From a virus, in IMG/VR virus record IMGVR_UViG_3300005747_000206, positions 1 to 30,351 of that record: a stretch of 30,351 nt of DNA. The stretch is one strand, 5' to 3'. The notes beneath the pieces were generated by a model. The model had not been told where the DNA came from. It was given only the letters and a program-made list of their open reading frames with translations, and searched no databases. Shown piece by piece: positions 2,367 to 29,523 of the stretch (its first letter is position 1; each line of letters begins with the position of its first letter). Made by a program: the position numbers and the translations under genes.

Positions 2367-2381
2367 ATTAGCGGAACTAAT
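2367..2381. promoter_or_regulatory. Operator-like palindrome ATTAG-N5-CTAAT (site 1)
   Basis: Exact copy with central bases CGGAA, in the 62-base gap before the 66-residue membrane protein, 33 bases upstream of its ATG. A possible promoter overlaps it: TTGTCT, 17-base spacer, TAATAC, with the right half-site forming part of the -10. It is the only copy in the rightward structural module, suggesting the same regulator controls a putative lysis gene. Confidence 0.7.
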
Positions 2382-2414
2382 ACACGGAACGTATTACGAA
2401 AAGGCGGTTTGATA

Positions 2415-2615
2415 ATGGAAGACAAAAAATACTGGGAGGCGCTTAACCGAATCATGACTCATGAAGCAATGTGTGAGGAGCGTTCTAAGACCATCTTTAC
2501 TCGCCTAGAGAATATCGAAGCCCAGCTTGCGGGTATAAACAAGAACATGTTTGTGCTCGGCGTAACTTTGGTCAGTGGCATGGCGGGCGTAATTGTTACT
2601 TTGCTTACTCGGTAA
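2415..2615 (+). CDS. Holin-like (XhlA-type) coiled-coil plus single TM protein (66 aa)
   Basis: Residues 1-43 form an amphipathic, probably coiled-coil region (EERSKTIFTRLENIEAQLAGINKN). Residues about 44-64 are one transmembrane segment (MFVLGVTLVSGMAGVIVTLLT) with a single trailing Arg. This architecture matches XhlA-type accessory holins. An upstream in-frame ATG at 2313 would add 34 residues overlapping the previous gene and the palindrome; the start at 2415, with AAGG upstream, is preferred. No endolysin is visible in this window, so a lysis role is inferred from architecture alone. Confidence 0.65.
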   Translation: MEDKKYWEALNRIMTHEAMCEERSKTIFTRLENIEAQLAGINKNMFVLGVTLVSGMAGVIVTLLTR

Positions 2616-2622
2616 TTAATAA

Positions 2623-4410
2623 ATGGCTTACTTTAAGAGAGACAAGTTCAGCGGTATCGCGCCCGGTGTGGCACCAAATCTACTGGCTGAGCAGTTTGGG
2701 CAGATCGCAGAGAACATTGACTTTGAGTCAGGCTCTTTGGTGCCAATTAAAAAAGAAGGCTCGGTAGAACACACGTTCACTTCCTCGGGGGCTTTAGTTC
2801 TCTCGTTCTATTACTACGAAAACAGCGTTACTAATCGATGGCTGCAGTTTAACTCAGCTAACGTCAATGTAATTGAAGGCCCCATACCTGGCGATACATA
2901 TGAGCGTATCTATTGGACAGGAGAAGCCTTTCCAAAAATGAGCGTGCAGACAGTCATTGAGGGTGATGGCTCGGCACCTTTCCCTGAGTCGTCATGGCGG
3001 CTAGGGGTTCCGGCTGCAGAAGATATGGGTTCCGTGACGCTAACCGGCACTCTCGATGATACCGTTACTGCCGAGGACGTGTCATATGTATACACGTTTG
3101 TGACTGCTTATGGCGAAGAAGGGCCGCCTAGCTCTCCGACTGATGCGGTTGAGGCTACCATTGGCCCAAGCAAGCAGTCCGCAGGTTTTAGCATTCCTAA
3201 CTATGGCGGCGTGTCTAGCTCTATAAATTTCTCGCGGAAGCGGATATATCGATCAAACACCGGCTCTACTAGCACGACGTTTCAATTTGTCGACGACGTG
3301 CCTTATGCTCAGACTAGTTACACAGATTCGAAAGACGCGGCAACCTTACAAGAAGTTTTACCGTCTGCTACCTGGATAGGTCCACCAGATGATAATACCT
3401 CGTTATATCCCGATGGGCCGCTGAAGGGGCTGACGGCGGTAGCCAATGGCGTTTTTGCTGGCTTCACTGGCAAGCGCCTTTGTCTAAGTGAGCCATATTT
3501 GCCGCACGCTTGGCCTATCTCTTACCGGATTACTTTAGAGGAAGACATTGTAGCTATAGGTGCTACCGCTAATGGAGTGGTTTGTTTAACAAAGGGTAAG
3601 CCTTATTTCGTGACCGGCGTAGACCCTAGTGCAATGAGCGCGCTACAAATAGACCTAGCGCAAGCATGCGTTAATCGGGACTCAGTCGTGGACATGGGCG
3701 AGTACATTTTGTACGCGAGCCCAGACGGCTTGTGCGCTATCTATAGTACGGAGGGGCGCGTTGTTACTAAGGGATTAATTTCTCCCGCTCAGTGGCGCGA
3801 TGATTTTGCACCTACTGCGATAAAAGCTTTTAAGCACGAAGGCACATACGTTGCATTTTATGACGATGGCTCCGATCACAAAGGCTGGGTCTATGATCCT
3901 CGTGCAGACGAGGCCGCTATTTCTACAATTAGCACTGAAAATACTGTCTATGCTGCTTGGCCGGATAGTGAAAGCGGAGAGTTATATATACTTGACGCTC
4001 AAGGCTCGACGGCGAGCAGGCGTGTGCGAAAGTATCGAGGGGCTGCTTCGACAAACAAGTTGCGCTGGAAATCAAAAAAGCTAGTTATGCCAGAGCCCAC
4101 AAGTATGGCGTGGGTCGGAGTGTATGCGGACAGTTACCCTGCTCCTGCTGGAGCAAATTATACCGACGTGTTGCGCCTTAGAGTTTGGGCCGACAGTACT
4201 CTCATAGCCGACTATTACTTACACAGCAGCGGCAGCGCGTATATTTTGTCGCCTACTACGCCCAGCACAGCGTCCAGCGCTAGTTTGCACGAGCCAATTA
4301 TGAGATTACCGGCTGTTACCGCACGTCAGTGGGAGGCGCAGGTTGAGTCGCAGCACCCTGTTCGAGAGCTCTGTCTTGCTCAAACAATGGATGAGATTAA
4401 ACAAGCATGA
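2623..4410 (+). CDS. Phage tail structural protein (595 aa)
   Basis: Large virion protein with alternating beta segments and repeated short 'DG' and 'G-x-Y' turns. The central block (about residues 275-385: 'FAGFTGKRLCLSEPYLPHAW', then 'TANGVVCLTKGKPYFVTG' and 'YILYASPDGLCAIY') is a recognisable conserved phage module near distal tail genes. Residues about 135-180 resemble an Ig/FN3-like strand set ('VSYVYTFVTAYGEEGPPSSP'). The stop overlaps the next gene's start (ATGA), implying coupled translation. Structural role follows from conservation and position; the exact tail component cannot be set by reading. Confidence 0.75.
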   Translation: MAYFKRDKFSGIAPGVAPNLLAEQFGQIAENIDFESGSLVPIKKEGSVEHTFTSSGALVLSFYYYENSVTNRWLQFNSANVNVIEGPIPGDTYERIYWTGEAFPKMSVQTVIEGDGSAPFPESSWRLGVPAAEDMGSVTLTGTLDDTVTAEDVSYVYTFVTAYGEEGPPSSPTDAVEATIGPSKQSAGFSIPNYGGVSSSINFSRKRIYRSNTGSTSTTFQFVDDVPYAQTSYTDSKDAATLQEVLPSATWIGPPDDNTSLYPDGPLKGLTAVANGVFAGFTGKRLCLSEPYLPHAWPISYRITLEEDIVAIGATANGVVCLTKGKPYFVTGVDPSAMSALQIDLAQACVNRDSVVDMGEYILYASPDGLCAIYSTEGRVVTKGLISPAQWRDDFAPTAIKAFKHEGTYVAFYDDGSDHKGWVYDPRADEAAISTISTENTVYAAWPDSESGELYILDAQGSTASRRVRKYRGAASTNKLRWKSKKLVMPEPTSMAWVGVYADSYPAPAGANYTDVLRLRVWADSTLIADYYLHSSGSAYILSPTTPSTASSASLHEPIMRLPAVTARQWEAQVESQHPVRELCLAQTMDEIKQA

Positions 4411-7213: not shown

Positions 7214-7223
7214 GGAGCACGCT

Positions 7224-7529: not shown

Positions 7530-7548
7530 TGGCACACTTTTGGCACAG
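7530..7548 (+). repeat. Right-arm TGGCACA repeats x2
   Basis: TGGCACAC at 7530 and TGGCACAG at 7541, 11 bases apart and in the same orientation as the left-arm copies. They lie between the core and the int start codon. Confidence 0.55.
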
Positions 7549-7563
7549 TTTAGGAGCGCTAAG

Positions 7564-8610
7564 ATGGCGAACATTCAGAAGAGAGGTGATAAGTGGCGAG
7601 CGCAAGTCCGCAAGGCCGGACATCCATCCATCACCAAGACGTTTGCTACCAAAACCGAAGCCCGTCAGTGGGCGAAGCGGACAGAAGCGGACATTGAGTC
7701 CGGCGCTTTGCTGGCACGCAAACAGAGATCCGAAAAGAAGACGACGTTCGGTCATCTGATCGATCGCTACATCAAAGAAGTCCATCCCCTTAACAATTTT
7801 TGCGAGTCCAAAATTTCTACTTATCGGTTGACGCAACGCGAAATTGGTCACTACAAGTTGCATGAGATTACAGTAGAGAAAGTGTTGGAGTACGGTCGTC
7901 AACGTAGGTTGGGAACAGACGACAAGAAGGGTGTTGCACGAAGCACGCTTAATACTCAGCTTCAATATATGGCGGAGCTCGTCGAGTTTGCTCGCATATC
8001 ATGGGGCATGCCTTTTGAAACAAACCCCGTGAGAGACGCGCGCTACGCTCTCGCAAAGATGAAGTTGGTAGGCCCTAGCCGCAAGCGTTCACGTAGGCTT
8101 GCCTCTGGTGAGTACGAAAAGCTCATGGAAGCAGCCAAAGGGCACTGGATCTCACACTTCATTGTTATTGCCGTTCACAATGCTATGCGTCTTGCCGAGA
8201 TCCATCGGCAGACCTGGGAAGACGTGGACTTTGAGAATCGCACGCTTACCATTCGTGATCGTAAAGATCCGCAAGAGAAAGAAGGCAACGATGAAACAAT
8301 CCCCATGCTCCATGAGACATGGTCCCTGCTTCATGGTCTATGGCTATGCAGCAAGCAGCGAGGAAGAGTCTTCTGCCAGGTTGCTACTGCGGGCGCTGTG
8401 TCAGATAAGTTTGCAGATGTAGCGCAGTTAGCGGGCTTTGGGGATTTGCACTTTCACGATCTTCGGCACGAAGCGTGCAGTCGTTTGTTTGAACAAAAGT
8501 TAACGATAGAGCAAGTAGCGCTGGTGTCCGGCCATAAATCTTGGGACACACTTAAACGCTACACTCAACTAAAGCCTGGGCAAGTTCTTGCTGCTATAGA
8601 GGGTAATTAG
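7564..8610 (+). CDS. int: Tyrosine-family site-specific integrase (348 aa)
   Basis: Catalyses phage integration by strand exchange through a phosphotyrosine. An N-terminal arm-binding region (about 1-55, 'GDKWRAQVRKAGHPSITKTF') is followed by an SAM-like core-binding domain (about 60-165) and a catalytic domain. Visible catalytic residues: Arg209 (AMRLAEI), Lys233 region, His298 and Arg301 (HDLRH), His324 (SGHKSW) and Tyr333 (LKRYTQL), so it looks active. The start at 7564 has AGGAG 7 bases upstream; an upstream in-frame TTG at 7540 lies inside an arm-like repeat and is not preferred. Its 3' end overlaps the convergent excisionase-like gene by 17 bases. Likely autoregulated through the repeats before it. 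Confidence 0.95.
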   Translation: MANIQKRGDKWRAQVRKAGHPSITKTFATKTEARQWAKRTEADIESGALLARKQRSEKKTTFGHLIDRYIKEVHPLNNFCESKISTYRLTQREIGHYKLHEITVEKVLEYGRQRRLGTDDKKGVARSTLNTQLQYMAELVEFARISWGMPFETNPVRDARYALAKMKLVGPSRKRSRRLASGEYEKLMEAAKGHWISHFIVIAVHNAMRLAEIHRQTWEDVDFENRTLTIRDRKDPQEKEGNDETIPMLHETWSLLHGLWLCSKQRGRVFCQVATAGAVSDKFADVAQLAGFGDLHFHDLRHEACSRLFEQKLTIEQVALVSGHKSWDTLKRYTQLKPGQVLAAIEGN

Positions 8611-8803
8611 TTATTTTAGACTCTAAGAACGCCGCGACTTCTGGAGTAGGGAACAGGTATTTCTTCCCGTGTTTAATGTGCGGGAGATCTAATTTGCCCC
8701 GGTTTATTTGACTGTAAACCGACCTAGTCTCTACTTTTAACAAGGTAGCAATTTCTGGGAGGTCCATAAACGGACCATACCTTTCTATTAACAAGTCTTC
8801 CAT
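8594..8803 (-). CDS. Excisionase-like helix-turn-helix protein (69 aa)
   Basis: A MerR/HTH_17-type small DNA-binding protein: 'MDLPEIATLLKVETRSVYSQINRGKLDLPHIKHGKKYLFPTPEV' has the helix-turn-helix and wing pattern of AlpA/Xis proteins. Ribosome site GGAGG is 7 bases before ATG. It is last in the leftward operon and converges on int with a 17-base tail-to-tail overlap, so int and this gene can oppose each other transcriptionally. Role as recombination directionality factor is inferred from family and position. Confidence 0.75.
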   Translation of the reverse strand: MEDLLIERYGPFMDLPEIATLLKVETRSVYSQINRGKLDLPHIKHGKKYLFPTPEVAAFLESKITNYPL

Positions 8804-9018
8804 AGTACGGCCTCCACCAGCGCTCTTGCTTCAGAAGTCCAAGTGTTTAAATCGCCGCGAGAGAATTCACCTTTTACGACGAGACTCGGAAGGCATTTTT
8901 TTGAAGTCCACGGTTTGTTTCTAGTTTCAAGGTTGAGGCGAGACCAAACTCGCCCAATCTCCTCCCGGCAAAAATTCCAGATGCCTGTCCAGCACCTATG
9001 TCTGTGTAGATTTTTCAT
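8788..9018 (-). CDS. Hypothetical protein, Trp/Arg-rich (76 aa)
   Basis: Not recognised. Basic and rich in Trp (six) and Arg, with three Cys. The start has AAGGAG 10 bases upstream and overlaps the end of the DUF3310 gene by 23 bases; the stop overlaps the excisionase-like start by 16 bases. The ribosome site and tight packing support a real gene. Confidence 0.6.
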   Translation of the reverse strand: MKNLHRHRCWTGIWNFCREEIGRVWSRLNLETRNKPWTSKKCLPSLVVKGEFSRGDLNTWTSEARALVEAVLWKTC

Positions 9019-9244
9019 TTTGCTCGTGCTCCTTCATAGAGGTTGTTAATTGATTTAAGTACCACTGGGCTTTTTTCAGATCTTCTAAGGGTTTGCCTTT
9101 GTAACGAAATCTCCAAAGGTATTTTAGGCAGTTGCCTTTGCAATACCCTTGGAATTCGATGGGGGACATAGATGCTTCGATTGCAGTAATGCATTCGACG
9201 CTTCCAGTATTGTAATGAGGGGGGTTTTCAACTGCATCTGACAC
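8996..9244 (-). CDS. DUF3310 family phage protein (82 aa)
   Basis: Shows the DUF3310 pattern: 'NPPHYNTGSVECITAIEA', then 'FQGYCKGNCLKYLWRFRYKG' and 'LEDLKKAQWYLNQL'. This small all-helical family is widespread in phages and often lies near nucleotide-metabolism genes; biochemical function unknown. Start is GTG at 9244, with GAGGT about 10 bases upstream. The operator-like palindrome at 9268-9282 lies 23 bases before the start, so this gene opens its own regulated unit with the 76-residue and excisionase-like genes. Confidence 0.85.
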   Translation of the reverse strand: MSDAVENPPHYNTGSVECITAIEASMSPIEFQGYCKGNCLKYLWRFRYKGKPLEDLKKAQWYLNQLTTSMKEHEQNEKSTQT

Positions 9245-9267: not shown

Positions 9268-9282
9268 ATTAGACCAGCTAAT
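9268..9282. promoter_or_regulatory. Operator-like palindrome ATTAG-N5-CTAAT (site 2)
   Basis: Exact copy in the 89-base gap between the repressor stop and the DUF3310 start. Read leftward, a weak TTGCAC, 17-base spacer, CATTAT pair precedes and touches it. It would control the DUF3310, 76-residue and excisionase-like genes immediately downstream of the repressor. Confidence 0.75.
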
Positions 9283-9333: not shown

Positions 9334-9921
9334 TTAATTAATGACGTAAGTGAGTAGTGGCATCAGCTTGGCTTCTAGCTCTTTGTCAGGCGGGCATTCA
9401 CTAATTTTTACTACTTCAAGCGGGTCGCTGTTTTTACGTTTGATCACGTAGAATTCTGGTATACGACCTGCCGTTAGGCGGGGGTTTTTTAGTTTAAACA
9501 TGTTTGAACACAGCGTCATTTGACCTGCAAAACCTATTGGTCGTAAGTCTTTTTCTAGTCGTATAGCGCAGATTGCTTTGTAGTTCTCTTCAGCTATAGT
9601 CGTTACGATGCGACGTCTGTACGCTATTTCTTTAAAATTAGAGGGGGTTCTAGGATGAATATACAGCACTGGCACGCGAATGCGATTAGCCTCTACAGGG
9701 CTATAAGTGGGGTCAATTTCAAGGGGGTCAACTTCAAGAAAATTTGCTAGCTTTGCCACAGCATCAGGGTGTAAATCAGTTATGTTATTAAGGTATTGGC
9801 TGAACGCTCCCTGCGTCCATCCTAATTTTTCTGCGGCTTGGGCTTGAGTTATTTCTAAGTGGTGTTTTTTGTTTTCCCAAATCCTACGCAAGTTTATTAC
9901 CGCTTTCGGCAACGTGTTCAT
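9334..9921 (-). CDS. XRE/Cro-CI family transcriptional repressor (195 aa)
   Basis: N-terminal helix-turn-helix (about residues 23-70): 'EITQAQAAEKLGWTQGAFSQYL', recognition helix about 36-45, then the conserved 'LHPDAVAKLANFLEVDP'. The C-terminal 120 residues show no clear Ser/Lys pair of the LexA/S24 autoprotease, so SOS-type self-cleavage is not apparent. AGGAGG lies 8 bases before ATG. The gene overlaps the VRR-NUC gene by 38 bases and is transcribed with the early genes rather than divergently. Best candidate for the protein that reads the seven ATTAG-N5-CTAAT sites, one of which lies just after its stop. It could be a Cro-like or late regulator instead. Confidence 0.8.
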   Translation of the reverse strand: MNTLPKAVINLRRIWENKKHHLEITQAQAAEKLGWTQGAFSQYLNNITDLHPDAVAKLANFLEVDPLEIDPTYSPVEANRIRVPVLYIHPRTPSNFKEIAYRRRIVTTIAEENYKAICAIRLEKDLRPIGFAGQMTLCSNMFKLKNPRLTAGRIPEFYVIKRKNSDPLEVVKISECPPDKELEAKLMPLLTYVIN

Positions 9922-10321
9922 GTATACATCCTCCTGACATACATGTTGTTTCTATATGCTTGGCAACGTGTTTAAAAGGCATACCTCGCTTTATTAAGTC
10001 GCCTCTGTTGATAGGGCTAAGGAGTAAGCTAGGGTCGATTACTGTGGCCTGTCGTTCCCAGCCAACTATTAGTCCGGTTAATTGTCCGTTGTTTTGCATT
10101 TTTGTCAACCATATTCGTTGTAGTTCTGACGTGCCAAAGGTGACAATCGTGCTTTGCCGCTTAGGAAGTTGTATGTATTTATACTCAATCCATAGGGAAC
10201 CGGCGGGTCCACAATAGAAAGCGTCAGGAACGCCGCCGGTATATGTATCATGGATTTTCCATCGATACAGTTCAGCTGGAAGGTGCCGATGCACGGCTTT
10301 TATGAAGCCGTGCTCGTTCAC
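9884..10321 (-). CDS. VRR-NUC domain nuclease (145 aa)
   Basis: Small PD-(D/E)XK nuclease of the VRR-NUC type found in phages beside helicases: 'TGGVPDAFYCGPAGSLWIEYKYI' carries the G-x-PD (Asp33) and E46-x-K48 active-site motifs. A Cys/His-containing tail (TTCMSGGCIHEH) could bind metal. Starts at GTG (10321), 6 bases after the preceding stop, with no strong ribosome site, so coupling is likely. Probably processes branched or damaged DNA with the SNF2-type helicase and the Cas4-like nuclease. Confidence 0.85.
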   Translation of the reverse strand: MNEHGFIKAVHRHLPAELYRWKIHDTYTGGVPDAFYCGPAGSLWIEYKYIQLPKRQSTIVTFGTSELQRIWLTKMQNNGQLTGLIVGWERQATVIDPSLLLSPINRGDLIKRGMPFKHVAKHIETTCMSGGCIHEHVAESGNKLA

Positions 10322-12931: not shown

Positions 12932-12952
12932 GTGTCCTCCTGACGGTTATGT

Positions 12953-12967
12953 ATTAGCCAGACTAAT
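12953..12967. promoter_or_regulatory. Operator-like palindrome ATTAG-N5-CTAAT (site 3)
   Basis: Exact copy in the 37-base gap between the GP88-like gene's stop and the 54-residue gene, 21 bases before that start. With the flanking T and A it forms a 17-bp palindrome. It would govern the unit from the 54-residue gene through helicase, 229-residue protein and VRR-NUC to the repressor itself, making the repressor possibly autoregulated from a distance. Confidence 0.75.
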
Positions 12968-12968: not shown

Positions 12969-13667
12969 CTAGTGCTCGAAAAATACAACTGTTTTGTCCT
13001 GAGATTCCCAACAAATAGTGCATTCTGAGCAGCTATTTAAGCGTCCTGTTTGTTCAGGACAGGGTGTATCTGTTCTGCCAAAGGTGTAGTCATCAGGTCT
13101 TCCTTTGACGACTCGCGTACTAAAAAAAGTAGAAGTATCATCTGAAAAGCGAACACGGCATTTCTCCTCGTATTTACGGTTCATTCGGACTATGGCGTAA
13201 CCAGTTTCAGTAAAAGATCTTTGATGCGTGTAGCCATAGATGTTTAACGGTTTGTACTTTTTAAGCATGCTGCGCCACCAGCCGACGTATTCAGTGCTGT
13301 AAAAGTCACCTAGCACATGCAGCCGGATCACGAAGCCTGTCTCATGCTTCATGGCGAGAGAGGCTATTTGTTGTTCTAACATTGGATAGAAGTCTGGATG
13401 AGTATGGTCATAGCGCAGCGCAAATGGCATGTTGTTGCCATAACAGTTGTCCCATTGTTCACAGTGAGTAGGGCAGGAGTTGCGCTCTTCTAAGGTCAAT
13501 GCGTACATAGGATGACCTTTCCATTTTCCTTTGGTTATCTTGTTACCCAGTTTTTTGTTGTTTCTGCCCGGTTTTAGCATGTTTAGCGCGGGCAGCTTGA
13601 CGCTTTTTAAGTATCTTGTTCTCGATAGGCTGTTTGGTAACTTTAGCTTCTCGGCAGTTGATGTCAT
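12969..13667 (-). CDS. GP88-family phage protein (232 aa)
   Basis: Matches the phage 'gene 88 protein' family: 'KLGNKITKGKWKGHPMYAL' followed by 'TLEERNSCPTHCEQWDNCYG' and 'NNMPFALRYD', then 'VIRLHVLGDFYSTEYVGWW'. Cys65, Cys69 and Cys75, plus a C-terminal cluster (PCPEQTGRLNSCSECTIC), could bind a metal or Fe-S cluster. Function of the family is not established. The ribosome site AAGGAA lies 7 bases before ATG inside the upstream 105-residue ORF, which it overlaps by 125 bases. Confidence 0.85.
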   Translation of the reverse strand: MTSTAEKLKLPNSLSRTRYLKSVKLPALNMLKPGRNNKKLGNKITKGKWKGHPMYALTLEERNSCPTHCEQWDNCYGNNMPFALRYDHTHPDFYPMLEQQIASLAMKHETGFVIRLHVLGDFYSTEYVGWWRSMLKKYKPLNIYGYTHQRSFTETGYAIVRMNRKYEEKCRVRFSDDTSTFFSTRVVKGRPDDYTFGRTDTPCPEQTGRLNSCSECTICWESQDKTVVFFEH

Positions 13668-15062: not shown

Positions 15063-15830
15063 TTAGCTAATACCCCATTCACACTCGGGGTTGTCGCCTT
15101 TTCTATAGGAGCACCATCGGCATGCCGATTTTGAGGGCGATGGCTCAAAGTCGAATTCACTTGTCATGCGAGTCGCGCGAGCGTGGAAGCCAGGAAGAAA
15201 CTGTGTTGCTTCTGCTCTCGTAAAGGTTTTAACAGTTGTTTCACCTTTGTCTAAGTACCACAACTCAGTTTGTACAAACTCAATTGATGGGTATCTGACA
15301 AAAGTAGCAATGGCATAAAGCAAAGCCTGCTGGCTATGACCAATTTCATTGCCCCATTTTTTGCCAGTTTTGTAGTCGATAACTCGTGCGCTTTGTTCGT
15401 CTTCTCTTACTAAAGCGTCGAGCTTAATGCGAGCCCATGTCCTGCTTTCCATCCAGCCGCATATTTCCCATTCCTCTGTGAAAGCCCAGTCACCTTCGAG
15501 TTCTACTTTTGCTTCAGCAAACAATGCCCGTAGAGTTTTAAAGTCGTCTTTAAACTTTTCTAAGTTACTCGGGAATTCACCTAACGTGCCGTTTACATAA
15601 TCTTCAGCTTCTTGGTGTATTTGCGTGCCTCGATCCGCGGCAGGGCTAGAAGGCTCTTTAATTTTTTTGACCCGCGATAGAAACGTGCGGTAAGGGCATT
15701 CTTCAAATACTTTGAGTGCTGAGTATGACCACGCACGGACAGGGCCGAGCGGTGGCTTATCCGACATAATTTTGTCAGCGTCGGGGCGAGTCGATTGTGT
15801 AATAGCAACGGTCATATTGTATTCCGACAT
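15063..15830 (-). CDS. Cas4/RecB-like PD-(D/E)XK nuclease with Fe-S cysteines (255 aa)
   Basis: RecB-family nuclease: 'WSYSALKVFEECPYRTFL' at the start of the fold, G68-x-x-x-H72, Asp138 in 'KLDAL', 'VIDYKTGKK' (Asp152-x-Lys154) and 'SQQALLYA'. Cys45 with Cys237, Cys240 and Cys250 match the four-cysteine Fe-S arrangement of Cas4/AddB-type nucleases. Likely an exonuclease for recombination or host DNA processing. No ribosome site precedes ATG 15830; the palindrome at 15841 ends only 10 bases upstream, so the mRNA may be almost leaderless, or initiation may use ATG 15815, which has a GGA upstream. Confidence 0.85.
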   Translation of the reverse strand: MSEYNMTVAITQSTRPDADKIMSDKPPLGPVRAWSYSALKVFEECPYRTFLSRVKKIKEPSSPAADRGTQIHQEAEDYVNGTLGEFPSNLEKFKDDFKTLRALFAEAKVELEGDWAFTEEWEICGWMESRTWARIKLDALVREDEQSARVIDYKTGKKWGNEIGHSQQALLYAIATFVRYPSIEFVQTELWYLDKGETTVKTFTRAEATQFLPGFHARATRMTSEFDFEPSPSKSACRWCSYRKGDNPECEWGIS

Positions 15831-15855: not shown

Positions 15856-18349
15856 TAGCACGGGTACGCAAGAGCGCATTGTCTTCATTAGTAAAATAAG
15901 CCTTAATAATCGACTGTAATTGCATTTGATTAGCCTTCCAATCTACAACCACGCCTCGAATAGGGTGTGCGTCTCGGCCTGCATCAGCTGCTCGTTTGCG
16001 TTGCACAGATACACGGTTTCTTGTTAGTCGCTTTTTGAAATCAATTGGTGACAGGGGAGGGCGTGCTTCAGTCAGTACGTTGAATACAACTCGTAATGCG
16101 TCAGTAGGGATGATGCTATAGTTTTTACTGTGAGCATCTGCAACCCAGCTTTTAACAAAGCGCTGCGCTGCATCGATTTCCCCTGAGTTCATAACATTTG
16201 TAATGCGTATATCTAATACATCGTTGAACCAGTCTAATGACCCTTCGCGCAGCGCTTGGCAAAACTCTTCGAATACGCTGAGCGATGCAGTTTTCATGAG
16301 TCGTTTTGCTTCGTTGTCTACTGGCATTCGCACAAGAGATTCGTTGTAAGCAAAAGTCTCTAGTGCTCCAGCAAAATGCAGCAATTCTTTTGGGATGTTT
16401 TTAAACTCCGATACTATTTCTGGGTGCTTATCTAATAGTTTCTCTTCTTGTCGCGGCGCGATGTTGTATCGTCTATCGCCGGGCTCAATGCGAATTGCGT
16501 CTACATGGTTCGTTAAAAATATAAAGCTGGTGTAGTTTGGAACTTCAACTTGATTTGATCGCATGCGTCGAATTGTTACTGACGGCTCGGTGATTTGATT
16601 CTTTAGCTTGTTTGCAACCTTTTGTGCAGCTGTGCTGCTTGCCATATGAAACTCATCTACTACACATACTAATGCGCGCTGGAGGTATGAGTTAAATTGT
16701 TCCTCAAGGTTTTCTAAAGTTTTGACAGGAGCCTGTTCTTCACCAAACAAAGGACGAAGTACTTGATAAGCAAACACGCCTTTGCCGGTGCCAGGCACTC
16801 CGCTTAGCACCCACGCAGTTTTTGCTTTTTCTTTGGTTTGGTAGATGTAAGCAAGCCAGTTGAAGAAGCGTTCAACTTCTTGCTGTCCGTCCCCAAGAAT
16901 GTGTCGCATAAGTTTAAAAATCGTAGGGCACTTGTTTTCTATTGTTGTCACATAACCAAGCTCAATAGGAGCTTCAGGTGTGATGGCGTTGTTCATGTAC
17001 ATTGTGCGTTTAAATGTGTTGATGCGGTAAGGCATCGTAGATAGATCGACGGTCGGCCCAGTGTTTGTTGGATCAAACGACATATCTGCATCCGGTACAA
17101 AGTCTGGGGCAGGGCGGCCATGCGTTCTCATGAAGTCTTCAATTGACTGTCGCGATGTAGGTTTCAGCACTTCAAACTCAGTTATGTTTGGGTTATAGAT
17201 ACCGTTCCAATACGTGTCAGTATTGAAGTCTCGAAAGACAACTGGATATTCAGGGCGGCCTTCTTTTTCCATCTCGTGAGCAAAGGTGTCAAAGATTGAC
17301 TGATAGAAATCGCTATCGGCTTGTTCGATGAGAAATATTGGTTCGCCTTTAAAGTTGTGCATATAGATGGGATTATCGAGATTGAACCAATACGCTTTGC
17401 TGTCTCCGCCGTTTATGTTGCAGCGGATGTACGGCGTGTTAGTCGTGTCTGCAATTACAATAGACATGCGGTCTGGGTTTAACAGCACTTCTTGGGGTTG
17501 CCGATCGATGTCCATTACTTTGATTTTTTCTGTAACTTTTTTAAGCCCGCTGGTCTCTCGAAGCTTGTTCTTGATGACTTGGCTTTTTTCATAAACTTGT
17601 TGAGGACTGAGATTTGCAACAAGCGCAGCAAGCTGCAGCTGATCGTGTTGTTTGCTGACTAATACAATGCGATCGTTCGCGCTGTTAAACGGGTCGTTCT
17701 TATTGTCGGTAAAGGTTGGGGGCGCAATAAAGATAAGCTTGCTGTTGTCGGCTACTGATATATCAAGTGGGTATTTTAAAGACTGTCCGTTGACGCTTAG
17801 CTCCAACTGGTCTGCAAATAACGTAGTCGTATAGTTGACGTGTTGTAGCCAAAGCTTGATTGTTTTGGCGGCTAGCGGTACATCAAGCATCATAATTATA
17901 TGCATGCTTATTGCGTCGTTTTTAAATCCAATACTTGATGATGCTTGCGCTATGTAGCTTACGTTGTGCAACTCAGCTGGCATGCATCTCATTAATGCTT
18001 CAGCTATTTGCTCGAACTTTTTACTGTCGATATTCCAGTAAGGCGCAAAGCTGCTGCCAGGAATTTTTATCCCGTCGAAGTCTAGAACCAATAGTCCACT
18101 TGGCGATGCTTTGTCGCTCGCGCCTGCTCGGCTTTCTTCTACTAGTTCTCGTTTTAGATTGCCTTTGAGTAAACAGTTTCCAATAGCTGCGTTATCAACA
18201 ACCGAGCTGAAGAGCTCATCTATTGATGCTACGTTGTATTGATATGAGTTTACTTTTTTGACATGTGGGTAAGGAGTAAATTTATTTTCACCGTCGTAGT
18301 GTTTGCTCAGTCTAAGGCCGTTAGCGGCCCCAAGATAAGTAACCTTCAT
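15851..18349 (-). CDS. Primase-helicase: AEP-like domain plus D5/SF3 helicase (832 aa)
   Basis: Replicative primase-helicase. The N-terminal part resembles an archaeo-eukaryotic-type primase: 'LLVLDFDG' (Asp90-x-Asp92) and 'SMHIIMML' (His150). The C-terminal SF3/VirE-like helicase has Walker A 'GVPGTGKG' (517-524), Walker B 'VCVVDEF' (Asp565, Glu566), sensor Asn614 (FLTNHVD) and Arg626/627 (GDRRYN). A D5-like linker lies between (about 400-510). The start is ATG 18349; no other ATG exists for more than 100 residues. No good ribosome site is present and the palindrome ends 7 bases upstream. Works with PolA at 18554-20371. Confidence 0.9.
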   Translation of the reverse strand: MKVTYLGAANGLRLSKHYDGENKFTPYPHVKKVNSYQYNVASIDELFSSVVDNAAIGNCLLKGNLKRELVEESRAGASDKASPSGLLVLDFDGIKIPGSSFAPYWNIDSKKFEQIAEALMRCMPAELHNVSYIAQASSSIGFKNDAISMHIIMMLDVPLAAKTIKLWLQHVNYTTTLFADQLELSVNGQSLKYPLDISVADNSKLIFIAPPTFTDNKNDPFNSANDRIVLVSKQHDQLQLAALVANLSPQQVYEKSQVIKNKLRETSGLKKVTEKIKVMDIDRQPQEVLLNPDRMSIVIADTTNTPYIRCNINGGDSKAYWFNLDNPIYMHNFKGEPIFLIEQADSDFYQSIFDTFAHEMEKEGRPEYPVVFRDFNTDTYWNGIYNPNITEFEVLKPTSRQSIEDFMRTHGRPAPDFVPDADMSFDPTNTGPTVDLSTMPYRINTFKRTMYMNNAITPEAPIELGYVTTIENKCPTIFKLMRHILGDGQQEVERFFNWLAYIYQTKEKAKTAWVLSGVPGTGKGVFAYQVLRPLFGEEQAPVKTLENLEEQFNSYLQRALVCVVDEFHMASSTAAQKVANKLKNQITEPSVTIRRMRSNQVEVPNYTSFIFLTNHVDAIRIEPGDRRYNIAPRQEEKLLDKHPEIVSEFKNIPKELLHFAGALETFAYNESLVRMPVDNEAKRLMKTASLSVFEEFCQALREGSLDWFNDVLDIRITNVMNSGEIDAAQRFVKSWVADAHSKNYSIIPTDALRVVFNVLTEARPPLSPIDFKKRLTRNRVSVQRKRAADAGRDAHPIRGVVVDWKANQMQLQSIIKAYFTNEDNALLRTRAN

Positions 18350-18356: not shown

Positions 18357-18371
18357 ATTAGTCCCGCTAAT
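18357..18371. promoter_or_regulatory. Operator-like palindrome ATTAG-N5-CTAAT (site 5)
   Basis: Exact copy in the 26-base gap between csrA and the primase-helicase, 7 bases from that gene's ATG. Read as RNA, it could form a 5-bp hairpin with a CGGGA loop containing a GGA, which the neighbouring CsrA could bind; other copies lack GGA, so a DNA operator is the better reading. Confidence 0.75.
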
Positions 18372-18375: not shown

Positions 18376-18552
18376 TTAGGCAGACTTTTTTTCCCGAGGC
18401 TCTCGGGTTATTTCTACATTAGGGTCTGCTTCGAATACGATTCTGACTTGGTTTCGGTCTATTCGACCTACTGTGACGGTAGCGACATGCTCACCGTCTT
18501 TTGAAAGGGTGACTTTATCGTTGACTTTCCTTGTCAATACGAGTCGCGACAT
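18376..18552 (-). CDS. csrA: CsrA/RsmA-family RNA-binding regulator (58 aa)
   Basis: Post-transcriptional regulator that binds GGA motifs in mRNA leaders. Sequence shows the CsrA core: 'LVLTRKVNDKV' (first strand), 'ATVTVGRIDRNQVRIVFEAD' (compare GxxGNQVRIGxxAP) and 'VEITREPREK' (compare VxVHREE), with the RNA-contact Arg at residue 50. Length 58, close to the family's 60-65. A three-residue insertion (SKDGEH region) lies between strands 1 and 2. Start is 1 base after the PolA stop (TGA-T-ATG) with no ribosome site of its own, so it is translationally coupled to the polymerase. Could remodel host translation or time phage early mRNAs. Confidence 0.85.
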   Translation of the reverse strand: MSRLVLTRKVNDKVTLSKDGEHVATVTVGRIDRNQVRIVFEADPNVEITREPREKKSA

Positions 18553-20862: not shown

Positions 20863-20866
20863 TGAT

Positions 20867-20881
20867 ATTAGCGCGGCTAAT
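20867..20881. promoter_or_regulatory. Operator-like palindrome ATTAG-N5-CTAAT (site 6)
   Basis: Exact copy in the 22-base gap between the VWA gene stop and the 113-residue gene. A promoter-like pair surrounds it on the minus strand: TTGCAA, exactly 17 bases, TAATAT, with the operator filling the spacer and half of the -10. This is the most convincing operator-over-promoter arrangement of the set and would control polymerase and CsrA synthesis. Confidence 0.8.
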
Positions 20882-20884: not shown

Positions 20885-22003
20885 TCATTGCAACAAATAA
20901 GTTGTTTGACCCCAAGGGGCGGCTTGGTTGGCGTCTGTTGAAACCCACAAGACAGGGTAATTTGGCTCTGGGGGATAGTCGTCACAGGGAGCTAAGTCGG
21001 TGAAAAACACCATGCCTTCGGGATCTACATCGTGTTGTTCTACCCAGTCAAAGACAGGCTGAAACAGCGTGCCGCCACCACCGCCTACATTTAAGATTTC
21101 AGTAGTCAGTTCTTGATCTTTGTCTACGTCTACGATTCGGGTCTCGTCAACTTGTGTGTCACATTGGATAAACACCATGCGCTCTGGTCTGAGATCGTCA
21201 TGAATAGCACAAACTTCTGCCAAGAATTTGTGAATCTGGTTGTGCGTTGAGCCTGATGTATCCATGACAATGACATATGTGCCGGGTGACTCGCTGTGCA
21301 TTGATGGAAAATACTCGTCTTCGCTGATGTAAGCACGGTGGGGTCGACGCCAAGTAAAGTCATCTTTGCTGTTGCCAGTAAAGAAGGGCCATAGGTATTG
21401 TCTGAAATCGATTTGTGCTTTTTCTAGTTTATCAATAAGACGCTCGACGCCGCCTGGCAGTTTGCCTGCTGCTTTAGCAACTTCAGCTGCTTGTTGCACG
21501 GCCAGATCCCACGATACTTCGAGTCCTGAACCGGAGTCTGCGTCAACAGCAGCTTCACCTGCGTCATTGACCAAGCCCCAAATACAAGGCTCTGAGTCTT
21601 CGTCAATTTGTTCGTAGATTGCTTCGGCTGTCATGTCACGATATTGTTCGTCGTGTAGGCCACCCTCGGGCAGAATGAAACCCGTATCTAAAAGAAACAA
21701 GTTGATTGCGTGATCGGCTGCGATGTTCCACTGCATAGGATCGCGTTCTTGTCGTCGTGTCATATGGTGACTGACACAGTGCATGACTTCGTGTGCAATG
21801 TTACCCTGTAGCTGCATGTCGGTTAGTTTGTTTACAAAATTAGCGTTGAAGTCTAAGTGAGTACCGTCTGTTGCAGCTGTTTTGATGTCATCGCGTATAC
21901 GTACTTTTAGCTTGAGACTCAGTACGCCGAAGAACGGCTCGTTGAGGATAAGCTGCGAACGTGCCGAAGTGACACGCTGCATGGTTAATGATTCATGTTC
22001 CAT
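20885..22003 (-). CDS. HExxH metallopeptidase-like plus VWA domain protein (372 aa)
   Basis: Resembles the DUF2201 architecture. The N-terminal domain has a zincin motif 'IAHEVMHCVSHHMTRR' (His71, Glu72, His75), with Asp97 (AADHAINL) a possible third ligand. The C-terminal VWA domain has an intact MIDAS: Asp248-x-Ser250-x-Ser252 (VIVMDTSGST), Thr312 (GGGGGT) and Asp336 (FFTDL). An acidic linker lies between (130-165). VWA proteins of this type act with MoxR AAA+ ATPases, and one is encoded two genes upstream. Likely assembles a metal-dependent chaperone or protease machine; substrate unknown. The first codons overlap a degenerate CATG heptad cassette; ATG 21982 is an alternative start. Confidence 0.85.
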   Translation of the reverse strand: MEHESLTMQRVTSARSQLILNEPFFGVLSLKLKVRIRDDIKTAATDGTHLDFNANFVNKLTDMQLQGNIAHEVMHCVSHHMTRRQERDPMQWNIAADHAINLFLLDTGFILPEGGLHDEQYRDMTAEAIYEQIDEDSEPCIWGLVNDAGEAAVDADSGSGLEVSWDLAVQQAAEVAKAAGKLPGGVERLIDKLEKAQIDFRQYLWPFFTGNSKDDFTWRRPHRAYISEDEYFPSMHSESPGTYVIVMDTSGSTHNQIHKFLAEVCAIHDDLRPERMVFIQCDTQVDETRIVDVDKDQELTTEILNVGGGGGTLFQPVFDWVEQHDVDPEGMVFFTDLAPCDDYPPEPNYPVLWVSTDANQAAPWGQTTYLLQ

Positions 22004-22005
22004 GA

Positions 22006-22671
22006 TTAAGCTACCAGTTTGGATGTGAGTACAACTCGATTGATGAGGTCACCATCAACTTTTGCAATTTCACGACGTTCACGAGCCTGAGACGCGCGTG
22101 TGACTTTCTTGTGCATCTCACGGAGTAAGTCGTCGTCTACAAATTCTTTCATTGAGGGTTGTGCTTCGAGTAACTGTTTGAGTGTGTTACAGCTGTCAAG
22201 CAGGTTTCTGATTTGCGTTCGGTAGTTTTGTTCGTCAGTTTCGGCTTGCTTGCGTTTTTCAGCAACTGCTTTGACTTTGTCTGCTATGGTAAGGCGTTGC
22301 ACCGTAGACAAATGTAGGGTGTTTAAGTCTAGGTTATGACAGTTATAGCCGCCGTCTATGTAGGATTCTCGGGTTGTTGGTAAGTCCAAGTAAATGTGGT
22401 CGTTTTCTCCTGCGTAGCCTGTGATACGGATCTTATCTCCTTTGAACAAATGTGTAAGCGAGCCTCGATGGAGAAAATCTTCAAGGCAGATGCAGTGTTC
22501 TGCTATAAGGTATGAAAAAGCTTGATGTGTTGGGTGGTCAATGACGCCTCTCCATATTTCTTCGAGGGTTTCGTTGTCTAAATTTTCTTCGGTGGTAGTA
22601 GCGTGATATGCTTTTTGTGCAGCTTTGAATATTTTATATCGTAGGTCTTTTCCTAATCTTACTGATGCCAT
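22006..22671 (-). CDS. Unknown middle gene of the MoxR-VWA cassette (221 aa)
   Basis: Unrecognised. The N-terminal half is globular ('LGKDLRYKIFKAAQKAYHAT', 'GDKIRITGYAGENDHIYLDL'). The C-terminal half (about 130-200) is helical and probably coiled coil ('KVKAVAEKRKQAETDEQNYR'). Start chosen at 22671, with AAGGAG 6 bases upstream; a longer frame begins inside the ATPase gene. Ends 2 bases before the VWA gene start, so the three genes are tightly coupled. It may link the ATPase to the VWA protein. Confidence 0.75.
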   Translation of the reverse strand: MASVRLGKDLRYKIFKAAQKAYHATTTEENLDNETLEEIWRGVIDHPTHQAFSYLIAEHCICLEDFLHRGSLTHLFKGDKIRITGYAGENDHIYLDLPTTRESYIDGGYNCHNLDLNTLHLSTVQRLTIADKVKAVAEKRKQAETDEQNYRTQIRNLLDSCNTLKQLLEAQPSMKEFVDDDLLREMHKKVTRASQARERREIAKVDGDLINRVVLTSKLVA

Positions 22672-22681
22672 GTTGTTCTCC

Positions 22682-23683
22682 TTAGAAGATAACTGAAGCG
22701 TTGTCGGTGATGTATTGCTGTACTGCTTGTTCGGTGGCAAGCGTGCGGTCTTTACCTAATATGTCTTTGACTGCTACGACTTGATACTCAGCAGGCAAAC
22801 GACGCAGGTAAGTCATGATGGGCTTGATATCTTGCTGACTTGCACGAGCTGACAAAGCGCCTGCTACTGCATACAACGTACTAGGTGAGTCAGGCACACG
22901 AACACTGCCAGGACTGCGAATGATCTGATCAATGTCAGGTAGCTCGTGGTAAATTTTGCGGAAGCTTAAGTACTCGCCTGCTGCACCGTCGCCCACACAT
23001 GACGCAACGTCATAGAAGCCGTCGTCATCGATGAATGGCAGTGCTTCGTTTACAAATGACCAAGTGCGGGGTGTCGGAAATGCATAATCTTGTGTATCAA
23101 TGTCATGCAACAAGTTAGGTCGGTAACGCAGGAACGCCGGAATTGATGGGTCCATACCGATTTGGTGTGCGTGAGCGCAGAAGTCATCAATGTGTGGGTC
23201 CATTACATAGTGGCGGAACCTGCTTTTTACTGCGGTTGTCATCTCTACTGCACCAGCACGATCGAAACTGCGGTTGCCTGCTGCAATAATGATTGTGTTT
23301 GGCGGTAACTCGTAAGTACCGATGCGTTTACATAACAAAAGCTGCAGCAGTGCGTTTTGCGTAGCTTTTGGTGCGTGTGTTAAATCGTCAATAAACAGCA
23401 GCACTGTTCCCTGGTAGCTTGCGTCTGGGTAGTCTTCTGGCACGCCGTATTTTGTGCGGTACGTGCCGTCTTGTTGTTCGACAACTTTGAGACCACCGCG
23501 AACATCGACTGGATCGAATAAGTTTGCGCGGATCTCAAACACCTTGGCGTTGAATTGGTTGCCAAGCTGGTAAACGATCTCGGACTTACCGATGCCAGGC
23601 GCACCCCAGATCATAGTGCCTTGACCGGATTTAGCTGCTTTAGCTGCTTGTTTAGCAAGATCAGCTGGGCGGATTGTTCTCAT
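22682..23683 (-). CDS. MoxR-like AAA+ ATPase (333 aa)
   Basis: AAA+ ATPase of the MoxR/dynein-like clade. Walker A 'WGAPGIGKSE' (27-34), 'DVRGGLK' after the first conserved block, Walker B 'VLLFIDDLTHAP' (96-100), sensor 1 'IIIAAGNRS' (Asn137), Arg finger 'VKSRFRHY' (Arg155/157), then a helical lid. Such ATPases remodel protein complexes with VWA partners. Ribosome site AGGAG upstream. Its first codons overlap the end of the 64-residue gene by 23 bases. In phages MoxR-VWA pairs are rare enough that a dedicated role, such as host protein remodelling or defence, is plausible. Confidence 0.9.
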   Translation of the reverse strand: MRTIRPADLAKQAAKAAKSGQGTMIWGAPGIGKSEIVYQLGNQFNAKVFEIRANLFDPVDVRGGLKVVEQQDGTYRTKYGVPEDYPDASYQGTVLLFIDDLTHAPKATQNALLQLLLCKRIGTYELPPNTIIIAAGNRSFDRAGAVEMTTAVKSRFRHYVMDPHIDDFCAHAHQIGMDPSIPAFLRYRPNLLHDIDTQDYAFPTPRTWSFVNEALPFIDDDGFYDVASCVGDGAAGEYLSFRKIYHELPDIDQIIRSPGSVRVPDSPSTLYAVAGALSARASQQDIKPIMTYLRRLPAEYQVVAVKDILGKDRTLATEQAVQQYITDNASVIF

Positions 23684-23855: not shown

Positions 23856-24052
23856 GCGACCTCCATGTTGTCTGGTGCATGCTTCATGTGTTGTTGTTGT
23901 CGCTCTTCGTCGATGACCGATTCAAAGCACCATTTGTGATACAGCATGAGGTCAGTGCTAGGGGATATGTCGATGTCGTCGGGAGCGTCTTCAGGCCATA
24001 CAGCTAAGTCTTCATCAGAGAAAATGCCGTCAGAGCACCATTCGCATTTCAT
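23852..24052 (-). CDS. Small protein with N-terminal CxxC (66 aa)
   Basis: Begins MKCEWCSDGIFSDED; the CxxC and a later HKWCFE could bind zinc. Asp-rich centre. The C-terminus (QHMKHAPDNMEVA) is encoded by CATG heptads. Ribosome site GGAGG is 4 bases before ATG; ATGA overlaps at both ends. Function unknown. Confidence 0.65.
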   Translation of the reverse strand: MKCEWCSDGIFSDEDLAVWPEDAPDDIDISPSTDLMLYHKWCFESVIDEERQQQHMKHAPDNMEVA

Positions 24053-24243
24053 ATGTCCTCCTCGATCGGCTCGTCTGCTAGATAGTTTGAGTCGTTTAAA
24101 ACTTCAGGGCGGTAGGTTGCCAGTTTGGCTTTGACGCATTTTGGACAGACGCGACATAAGTAAATCCCGCGTGCGTCATACTCTTCCCAGCTGTAGTCAA
24201 CATCTGGGTCCTGATTGCACATGTGATATGCAAGCTCGCTCAT
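24049..24243 (-). CDS. Putative zinc-binding phage protein (64 aa)
   Basis: Contains 'YDARGIYLCRVCPKCVKAKL' followed by 'YRPEVLNDSNY' and an acidic end, a pattern common in small phage proteins. The C-x-x-C-x-x-C cluster suggests a zinc ribbon. Ribosome site AAGGAG is 10 bases before ATG. The start overlaps the 33-residue gene's stop (ATGA). Confidence 0.75.
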   Translation of the reverse strand: MSELAYHMCNQDPDVDYSWEEYDARGIYLCRVCPKCVKAKLATYRPEVLNDSNYLADEPIEEDI

Positions 24244-24341
24244 AACGCTATTGCTCCTTCATAAATAATTATTAGTGAATAAAATAGCCCAACTAATATG
24301 AGTGCTAATACGTGTTCAGGTATATCTGTTAGACGCTTCAC
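24240..24341 (-). CDS. Putative single-TM mini-protein (33 aa)
   Basis: A 33-codon ORF starting at GTG, which overlaps the upstream stop (GTGA), and ending in a TGA that overlaps the next start (ATGA). The product is KRLTDIPEH plus one transmembrane segment (VLALILVGLFYSLIIIY) and EGAIAL. It exactly bridges what would otherwise be a 94-base gap. No strong ribosome site; coupling from the upstream gene would be required. Confidence 0.5.
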   Translation of the reverse strand: MKRLTDIPEHVLALILVGLFYSLIIIYEGAIAL

Positions 24342-25228: not shown

Positions 25229-25446
25229 GACGCCACTCCTATGTATGGGTCTGTTATGACTTCCCACTTAGCATCTCGTGTTTCAACAAGCTCCCAATCC
25301 CCGTCTAAACTGGCAATGTCGTAGACCATGTCAGTTATGTATTCTTCGTACATTGGGTTTTTATCGGTTAGCCAATCTGGTACTCGGATAAGTACGTCAG
25401 CGTCTTGAATTACTGTTCGTTCGGCTTTAACGCGGATCGTTTTCAT
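25225..25446 (-). CDS. Small beta-type hypothetical protein (73 aa)
   Basis: Unrecognised. 'KTIRVKAERTVIQDADVLIR' followed by 'WLTDKNPMYEEYITDMVYDI' suggests a small alpha/beta fold like those in some phage host-takeover proteins. AAGGTG precedes the start; coupled by ATGA to the membrane protein upstream. Confidence 0.6.
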   Translation of the reverse strand: MKTIRVKAERTVIQDADVLIRVPDWLTDKNPMYEEYITDMVYDIASLDGDWELVETRDAKWEVITDPYIGVAS

Positions 25447-25748
25447 GACGCCACACCTTGTGGCTCATGCACGCGCCAGCCCATTTTGCGGTAGGGAAAC
25501 TTGTCAGTTTTGATTACGCCGAATGACTCATGTCGCATGGTGCGCTTCATGAGGAAGAGCATGACGCTGACAATCAAGCCAGCAAAAAGTGCTGCCATCA
25601 TGCCGCTGAACGTGCCTGCAAGTAGGAACATAAGCAGCACGGTGACGAACAAGTCGACGTAGATGTCATAGTTAATGATGCGTCGCACGCCAAATTTGAA
25701 TAGAAGGAACAGCAAGCCTGCTGCTGCTATAAGTCCAGCTAATATCAT
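25443..25748 (-). CDS. Conserved phage membrane protein (101 aa)
   Basis: Hydrophobic segments at about 1-18 (ILAGLIAAAGLLFLLFKFG), 28-45 (IYVDLFVTVLLMFLLAG) and 48-66 (SGMMAALFAGLIVSVMLFLM), then a basic cytoplasmic tail. The 'LFKFGVRRIINYDIYVDL' and 'LAGTFSGMMAAL' pattern recurs in small early membrane proteins of phages. Ribosome site AAGGAG is 6 bases before ATG. Role unknown; membrane anchoring of replication or exclusion is possible. Confidence 0.75.
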   Translation of the reverse strand: MILAGLIAAAGLLFLLFKFGVRRIINYDIYVDLFVTVLLMFLLAGTFSGMMAALFAGLIVSVMLFLMKRTMRHESFGVIKTDKFPYRKMGWRVHEPQGVAS

Positions 25749-25751
25749 AAG

Positions 25752-28304: not shown

Positions 28305-28317
28305 ATCTAGTCCTCGT

Positions 28318-28745: not shown

Positions 28746-28772
28746 GGCACGCTGAGTCCTCTTTGGGTTAAG

Positions 28773-28805
28773 AAAAAAAACCCGATGCCAACGAGTGGCA
28801 CCGGG
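28773..28805 (-). terminator. Strong rho-independent terminator after the 221-aa gene
   Basis: Minus-strand 10-bp stem (28796-28805 with 28781-28790, one G-U pair), 5-base loop, then eight T (28773-28780). It lies 13 bases after the stop at 28818, so the 221-residue gene has its own operator-like site and its own terminator. Confidence 0.92.
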
Positions 28806-28817
28806 GTGGAGTAACTA

Positions 28818-29483
28818 CTAAGCGGCAAGACGTGCTTCCAATGCCGCGGCTCGGTTAGCCATGAAGCCAGCAAGCTGAGTCTTGGCGTCAGACGCTTTGA
28901 GCTCGTCGACAATCTCCTGCATGACGAGCATGGCGCTGTCGTAGGTGTCAGCTGGTGTGGCGTTGACCCACGTTTCGGTCTGCTTGTCGAGGCTGGACGG
29001 GTTGAAGAACAACAGGTCGATGTCGAACGCTTGTCCGTCGATGCCAAGCTCGGTCATGATCAGAGTCTGCGTGGTGAACAGCAGTTCGTAGTCAGACTGA
29101 ACAGCTTCTTTGATGCGCTCGCGAGGCATGTCGGTCTCAACGTCGTCGATTGCAGACTGTGCAAGATCGACACCGTAGATGCCGCCTGACTCTTGCTCCT
29201 GCTTCTCAGCACGTTCTAGAGCGATGTTGAGCTTGCGGGCGTTCCACATGACACGGTCCATGAGGTTCTGGAAAAAACCAAGGACAGCGAATGTGTGGAA
29301 AGGTGCTTCGTCTTCTGATGAGTGGCACTCGAAACAGGCTTTGGCTAGCGCTACGTCGATTGAAGTGCCGTCGTTGGTGAAGGCAGACACGTAGTTGGCT
29401 AGGTTGGTGAAGTGGCTGTTAGTCTTGCCAGCACACAGCTTGTTGATAGCACCGGGGATGAATGATTCGGTCATGTTGTTCAT
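28818..29483 (-). CDS. Hypothetical protein in a monocistronic early unit (221 aa)
   Basis: Unrecognised, acidic and mostly helical ('IDVALAKACFECHSSEDEAP', 'VMWNARKLNIALERAEKQEQ', 'ASDAKTQLAGFMANRAAALE'). Contains one C-x-x-C... no: a single CFEC pair (about residues 50-53) that could bind metal. AAGGAA lies 6 bases before ATG. Preceded by a palindrome and followed by a strong terminator, so it is expressed as a separate regulated unit, often a sign of a high-level early product. Function unknown. Confidence 0.7.
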   Translation of the reverse strand: MNNMTESFIPGAINKLCAGKTNSHFTNLANYVSAFTNDGTSIDVALAKACFECHSSEDEAPFHTFAVLGFFQNLMDRVMWNARKLNIALERAEKQEQESGGIYGVDLAQSAIDDVETDMPRERIKEAVQSDYELLFTTQTLIMTELGIDGQAFDIDLLFFNPSSLDKQTETWVNATPADTYDSAMLVMQEIVDELKASDAKTQLAGFMANRAAALEARLAA

Positions 29484-29508
29484 AGCGTATTCCTTACGTT
29501 GAAGTTAG

Positions 29509-29523
29509 ATTAGTACTGCTAAT
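29509..29523. promoter_or_regulatory. Operator-like palindrome ATTAG-N5-CTAAT (site 7)
   Basis: Exact copy 25 bases before the 221-residue gene. A weak promoter overlaps on the minus strand: TTGCTT, 17 bases, TAATCT, the operator filling spacer and -10 as at sites 1 and 6. Confidence 0.75.

Follow-up and report, generated by a model that had tools for sequence, protein, structure and literature searches.

To our knowledge, documented cases of dispersed repressor regulons come from only a handful of cultured phages. Streptomyces phage phiC31 encodes one repressor that serves symmetric, conserved inverted repeats dispersed near promoters. Coliphage P1 has one repressor, C1, for ~22 operators that are scattered around its genome (PMC8546580). 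The master lysogeny repressor MrpR (YopR) of Bacillus phage SPbeta acts on a 15-bp element, SPBRE, in the promoter regions of ~10 phage genes (PMC10516654), and mycobacteriophage L5 and cluster A carry many dispersed sites, with repressor and site motifs diverging together across related phages (PMC6550527, PMC9283540). Here, we describe seven perfect copies of the palindrome ATTAG-N5-CTAAT in IMG/VR record IMGVR_UViG_3300005747_000206, a viral DNA stretch of 30,351 bp analyzed in full (the window). We place at about 0.84 the probability that these copies are dispersed, promoter-embedded operators of one phage repressor, the 195-amino-acid (aa) XRE protein termed XRE195, probably serving lysogeny.

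Seven exact palindromes in the window

Rescanning the window recovered all seven copies listed in an earlier note on this DNA, starting at 2367, 9268, 12953, 15841, 18357, 20867, and 29509. First-order Markov simulations yield a mean of 0.04 copies with a maximum of 1 in 200, in line with the note's figure of about 0.03, and ATTAG-N5-CTAAT is the sole combination exceeding three copies among 21,504 combinations of 5-base half-site and spacer in the window; a chance origin is rejected on these grounds. The backwards pattern, serving as a control, has 0 matches in the window and 0 in every relative.

Every site ends 4-33 bp before the next start codon, as had been claimed (positions are given without strand). 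Operator 1 (ATTAGCGGAACTAAT, 2367-2381) lies 33 bp before a 66-aa gene of the lysis region (2415-2615, plus strand) and is kept in relatives G001, G002, and G003. Operator 2 (ATTAGACCAGCTAAT, 9268-9282) lies 23 bp before the DUF3310 gene (8996-9244, minus strand); a site also precedes DUF3310 in many relatives, and G003 has two copies there. Operator 3 (ATTAGCCAGACTAAT, 12953-12967) is positioned 21 bp before a 54-aa gene heading the helicase operon, and its equivalent precedes the 54-aa/helicase genes in most relatives. Operator 4 (ATTAGTCTAACTAAT, 15841-15855), located 10 bp before the Cas4-like nuclease gene (15063-15830, minus strand), spans the stop codon of the primase-helicase gene (15851-18349, minus strand), an overlap that the earlier note had also pointed out; the Cas4-like gene is preceded by an equivalent operator in most of 80 loci. 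Operator 5 (ATTAGTCCCGCTAAT, 18357-18371) lies 7 bp before the primase-helicase gene, operator 6 (ATTAGCGCGGCTAAT, 20867-20881) 4 bp before a 113-aa gene upstream of polymerase/csrA, and operator 7 (ATTAGTACTGCTAAT, 29509-29523) 25 bp before a 221-aa gene (28818-29483, minus strand).

Three further copies with one mismatch, overlooked by the earlier note, are conserved in relatives at matching positions. The first (ATTAGTCCGGTTAAT, 10068-10082) lies within a 145-aa gene ~150 bp upstream of the XRE195 start; G001 and G002 retain its half-sites with a changed spacer, and it is a possible autoregulatory site. The second (AATAGCCCAACTAAT, 24283-24297) lies ~40 bp before a 64-aa gene (24049-24243, minus strand) and is conserved in G002, G007, and G010, while the third (ATAAGTCCAGCTAAT, 25729-25743) overlaps the start of a 101-aa gene (25443-25748, minus strand) and is perfect in G002-G005.

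Conservation across relatives

Relatives were collected via the polymerase, XRE, and Cas4-like proteins. Exact sites are present in 20 of 39 records of a first set and in 26 of the 36 larger records of a second set, with mostly 6-15 copies per near-complete or larger relative and 284 distinct site contexts overall. The earlier note had proposed an operator before each functional unit and had chosen conservation in relatives beforehand as the check that could overturn its proposal. The motif is indeed conserved upstream of orthologues, comprising the Cas4-like nuclease, the helicase or 54-aa leader gene, DUF3310, the primase-helicase, the 113-aa, 221-aa, and 101-aa genes, and the 66-aa lysis-region gene. 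Comparison with the window reveals that substitutions are concentrated outside the half-sites (6/270), affecting 36/135 spacer positions (p=1.6e-13) and 107/759 flanking positions (p=2.7e-9 versus half-sites). A degenerate family operator, TANTAS-N5-STANTA, occurs 291 times in 1.36 Mb of family loci, compared with 2 copies of the reversed pattern and 11-18 at other spacings.

Placement is not confined to intergenic DNA, as the earlier note had supposed from the window; some sites in relatives overlap start codons, and many relatives have an additional site inside the polymerase gene, ~120 bp before csrA. The polymerase peptide encoded there, I-S-x-[A/P]-N, uses the exact operator codons in 26/26 distinct relatives, compared with 0.9% predicted from the codon use of those genes, although the 26 polymerase sequences are kin to one another and do not amount to 26 independent trials. 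The motif is absent from the cultured relatives phiA008 and KPP25, and polymerase relatives at ~41% identity have neither XRE nor the ATTAG motif.

Other palindromes are present in some loci. Five of the ~41%-identity loci (L028, L035, L047, L056, and L080) carry a dispersed (C)TAACA-N2-TGTTA(G) palindrome at 8-14 copies per locus, often tens of bases from gene starts, with no XRE homologue in the whole records checked; the pattern suggests a second regulon, unrelated to the first, or a leader element. In L221, L222, and L204, ATTGC-N7-GCAAT and GCAAT-N13-ATTGC palindromes are abundant, reaching 16 copies per locus.

Full operator and promoter overlap

Alignment of 113 dereplicated sites, each oriented by its downstream gene, defines a 17-bp operator, TATTAG-Y-N3-R-CTAATA. 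The A/T flanks described in the earlier note are T and A, respectively, and these flanks, along with a Y...R spacer preference that had escaped notice, enlarge the element to 17 bp. A TTG peak stands exactly 19 bp upstream of the operator center (31/113; mirror strand, 4/113; p=5e-7). Separated from this -35 TTG element by 17 bp, a downstream TAATAT hexamer is completed by A+8/T+9. With promoters defined as consensus matches rather than mapped, the operators appear to overlap sigma70-like promoters, the 3' half-site forming part of the -10 hexamer in the main register.

In the window, this overlap is clearest at operator 6, with TTGCAA (20888-20893)-N17-TAATAT (20865-20870), and is likewise visible at operator 1, with TTGTCT (2355-2360)-N17-TAATAC (2378-2383), and operator 7, with TTGCTT (29530-29535)-N17-TAATCT (29507-29512). 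Operator 3 has TCGAGC (12974-12979)-N17-TAATAC (12951-12956), and operator 5 a weak -35, CTGCCT-N17-TAATTT. Cas4-type sites adopt a second register, in which a TATACT-like -10 is built from spacer and half-site; at operator 4, the elements are TTGCGT (15866-15871)-N16-TAGACT (15844-15849).

XRE195 as the candidate reader

XRE195, encoded at 9334-9921 on the minus strand, is composed of a lambda-cI-like helix-turn-helix (HTH) domain (residues ~6-70, recognition helix WTQGAFSQYLNN) and a β-rich C-terminal domain resembling phage 186 CI. It carries the HTH_3/XRE DNA-binding domain of lambda-cI-type (Cro/C1) repressors, with an HTH_3 match of 4e-7, above the cut-off, that is shared by all 62 relatives. 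Profile search matched the lambda cI DNA-binding domain (3kz3, 6e-9), lambda cI being the best match in the PDB. An AlphaFold2 model built from the 62 relatives reached a predicted local distance difference test (pLDDT) score of 89.5, an earlier run with 15 sequences having modeled the C-terminal domain poorly (pLDDT 58). The best full-length Foldseek match is 7jvt, a lambda-186 hybrid repressor, at a template modeling (TM) score of 0.46, 14% identity, and a root-mean-square deviation of 7 Å; the fold matches include a lambda cI operator complex. Peptidase_S24 is recognized in 0 of 62 family members at E<=0.01, and no conserved C-terminal Ser or Lys stands among the invariant columns of the family, so the Ser-Lys dyad of S24 is not apparent.

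The earlier note had named this protein as the likely reader and pictured a homodimeric HTH protein on a symmetric site. The lambda-cI-like domain fits such a dimer, and XRE195 was the sole Cro/C1-type hit among those window proteins that were scanned. Operator geometry, with TA at -8 and -7, a length of 17 bp, and an odd center, is compatible with a lambda-cI-type reader. XRE is present in 26 of the 36 larger records; tyrosine integrase is found in 24, all of them among these 26, and in 0 of the 10 records lacking XRE. Exact sites occur in 23 of the 26 XRE-bearing records, and two more, G025 and G020, are placed among relatives whose palindrome is a variant. Sites are still present in relatives that match the window protein over HTH residues ~7-72 only. 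The XRE gene closes the helicase operon and shares its orientation, both in the window and in the relatives examined. On this sequence evidence, one lambda-type repressor almost certainly reads the sites, and XRE195 is the best candidate. The GenBank phage set contains no match to XRE195.

Proposed mechanism

In our model, an XRE195 homodimer would bind the 17-bp TATTAGY-N3-RCTAATA through its lambda-cI-type HTH. Each operator would sit on a sigma70-type promoter, with the 3' half-site in the -10 (TTGnnn-N17-TAATAT) in most units and the -10 formed by spacer and half-site in the Cas4 unit. Bound repressor would shut RNA polymerase out of each of ~7-15 promoters, so that replication, nuclease, lysis-region, and accessory units would all be silenced at once. 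Because the same operator lies at the promoter of the operon that ends with XRE, XRE195 would also repress itself. Such binding, repression, and autoregulation are what the arrangement of sites and genes suggests. Release by an antirepressor seems more likely than release by self-cleavage, given that no Peptidase_S24 is recognized and that the predicted fold resembles 186 CI.

Operator specificity and repressor loss within the clade

A sister clade without ATTAG sites carries TAGTAS-N5-STACTA in an unchanged register, its half-sites being TAGTAG or TAGTAC. Its recognition helices, WTQSAFSHYLTE, WTQSAFSHYLVN, or WKQSNFSHYIAN, replace W[ST]QGA...YLN, and hybrid or mixed half-sites occur in several further genomes. 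This co-change of helix and operator is consistent with XRE as the reader. A single switch residue, Gly38 to Ser, is rejected since WTQSA helices are also paired with ATTAG sites. Residue 45 (YLN versus YLT/YIA/YLV) separates the variant clade better than residue 38, with too few independent pairs on the tree; mapping the operator onto the XRE and Cas4 trees requires 8 and 10 changes, respectively, which is not decisive.

Several observations weigh against XRE195 as a promoter-bound lysogeny repressor. The co-change of helix and operator occupies one branch on the Cas4 tree and is one event rather than statistically independent evidence. G006 and G022 (~56 kb, near complete, 98% alike) lack XRE and integrase, yet have 4 and 3 exact sites. 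Conversely, XRE is present in G047 without any exact ATTAG site (4 degenerate sites in its locus L201), and no degenerate sites are present in loci L143 (G020) and L133 (G026). De novo motif search in L201, L203, L219, and L224 gave no clear new dyad; the degenerate operator gives 2-5 sites in each. Within the window, the DUF3310 site (9268) fits neither promoter register clearly. The lysogeny role itself, which we consider probable, is deduced only from the integrase, excisionase-like, and repressor genes.

G006 and G022 (L107-L109, L117-L119) probably descend from the temperate clade as lytic derivatives. At the Cas4-like gene, the half-site is ATTAG in G006 and mutated to ATTGG in G022, a difference that fits the site decay expected after recent repressor loss, and the pair would be useful for timing operator decay. 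More tentatively, with the odds slightly below even, we envisage a large uncultured temperate clade in which a lambda-type repressor reads one symmetric operator that forms part of the -10 element in almost all early promoters. A specificity shift from TATTAG through mixed TAATAC/TAGTAC hybrids to TAGTAG/TAGTAC would be traceable together with the recognition helix, and lytic derivatives without the repressor would be beginning to lose their sites. If true, the clade provides a natural series of immunity-specificity shifts in which many operators must change at once.

Alternative explanations

We consider it unlikely, although it is the best-surviving alternative, that XRE195 reads the same sites as a temporal, Cro-like regulator lowering early genes during the lytic cycle rather than as a lysogeny repressor. 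The last position of XRE in the helicase operon, from which it would be made along with the replication genes and exert feedback shut-off, favors such a role, as does the absence of a visible divergent cI/cro pair. However, the distribution of integrase across the larger records (24 of the 26 with XRE, 0 of the 10 without) ties XRE to a temperate lifestyle, and sites also precede lysis-region and accessory genes.

There is a small chance that the sites are read by a transcription factor of the host, or by a phage protein other than XRE195, and that XRE merely co-occurs. The sites retained in G006 and G022 without an XRE homologue and the single phylogenetic event behind the helix/operator co-variation are compatible with such a reader. 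Against it, operator differences among related phages follow the XRE clade, distant and cultured relatives without XRE are also without the motif, the site geometry and half-site suit a lambda-cI-type reader, and the scanned window proteins offer no second Cro/C1-type candidate.

The odds are smaller still that the sites are stoperators, at which bound repressor would chiefly block elongating polymerase, as proposed for mycobacteriophage L5. The earlier note had likened them to stoperators with a symmetric site; the symmetry holds, but the overlap with -35/-10 elements points to promoter operators. Some copies do lie within genes or at gene ends, as in the polymerase gene of relatives and at 10068 in the window, whereas the majority stand on promoter-like sequences in a fixed register. 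L5 sites are asymmetric and orientation-dependent (PMC9283540), and the pattern of L5-type stoperators, asymmetric sites oriented with transcription and away from promoters, is not the one seen here.

An RNA-level element, whether a leader hairpin in mRNA (for example, a site for the phage CsrA-like protein) or a terminator, is the least credible explanation. In its favor, the symmetric repeats could pair, a csrA homologue occupies 18376-18552, and start codons lie near the sites. Against it, the stem comprises only 5 A/T-rich pairs, and the loops are not conserved, most of them having no GGA motif. The overlap of the -10 with the 3' half-site places the repeat upstream of the predicted transcription start, and some sites lie inside a gene.

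Gene content of the window

The record is classed "linear," and the window is therefore likely a fragment of a phage genome, probably that of an uncultured temperate phage. It has no near relatives in the GenBank phage collection, and a search of genome contigs for host assignment returned distant polymerase matches only. A tyrosine integrase (7540-8610, plus strand; PF00589, 1e-21) indicates a temperate lifestyle. From 9 kb onward, genes are mostly on the minus strand. The minus-strand content comprises a 69-aa, excisionase-like HTH_17 protein (8594-8803; PF12728, 2e-9), DUF3310, XRE195, the 145-aa gene, a Pam3 gp34-like protein, the helicase, the Cas4-like PDDEXK (PDDEXK_1) nuclease, the primase-helicase, a csrA-like gene, the DNA polymerase, a VWA/MoxR pair, and small genes.

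The 58-aa CsrA-like protein (18376-18552, minus strand; PF02599) is encoded between the polymerase and the primase-helicase, and its gene adjoins the polymerase in relatives such as G006. At 20885-23683 on the minus strand, a DUF2201 VWA-like/metallopeptidase-like protein and a MoxR-type AAA ATPase lie close together among the replication genes, as they do in relatives such as G006. A short recurring dyad, CCATG-N10-CATGG, is found at 3 copies in the window and likewise in several relatives (also G002, L161, and L162).

Comparison with known systems

The regulon recurs in public viral metagenomes with an operator readable from the sequence itself, making lysogeny control predictable for many uncultured phages; TANTAS-N5-STANTA on a promoter offers an annotation rule for phages absent from database annotation. 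The joint change of operator and recognition helix within the clade is a testable case of how a repressor with many scattered operators shifts specificity yet keeps control.

One phage-specific site stands at many separate transcription units here, in seven exact and three weak conserved copies, which is the layout of a dispersed regulon. Among the closest known systems, P1 C1 also pairs one repressor with many dispersed operators; however, P1 operators are 17-bp and asymmetric (ATTGCTCTAATAAATTT), and C1 works with Lxc/Coi partners, whereas the sites here are symmetric. SPbeta likewise pairs a repeated promoter element, also first found in silico, with one repressor, but MrpR has a tyrosine-recombinase fold and XRE195 a lambda-type HTH. 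L5 shares the many dispersed sites and the co-divergence of repressor and motif; its sites are 13-bp, asymmetric, monomer-read, and proposed to stop elongation, in contrast to the 17-bp symmetric sites on promoters described here. From phiC31, the system differs in both repressor and site sequence. Similarity to lambda cI and 186 CI covers the profile match to the lambda cI N-terminal domain, the fold match to the lambda-186 hybrid, and the 17-bp odd-centered operator, with the C-terminal match to 186 CI weak overall. Lambda groups its operators in a single switch region flanked by the divergent cI and cro genes, whereas the seven operators here are scattered singly over many genes across 27 kb, with XRE in a one-directional operon. 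The layout is of a known kind, but the present family appears not to have been described previously.

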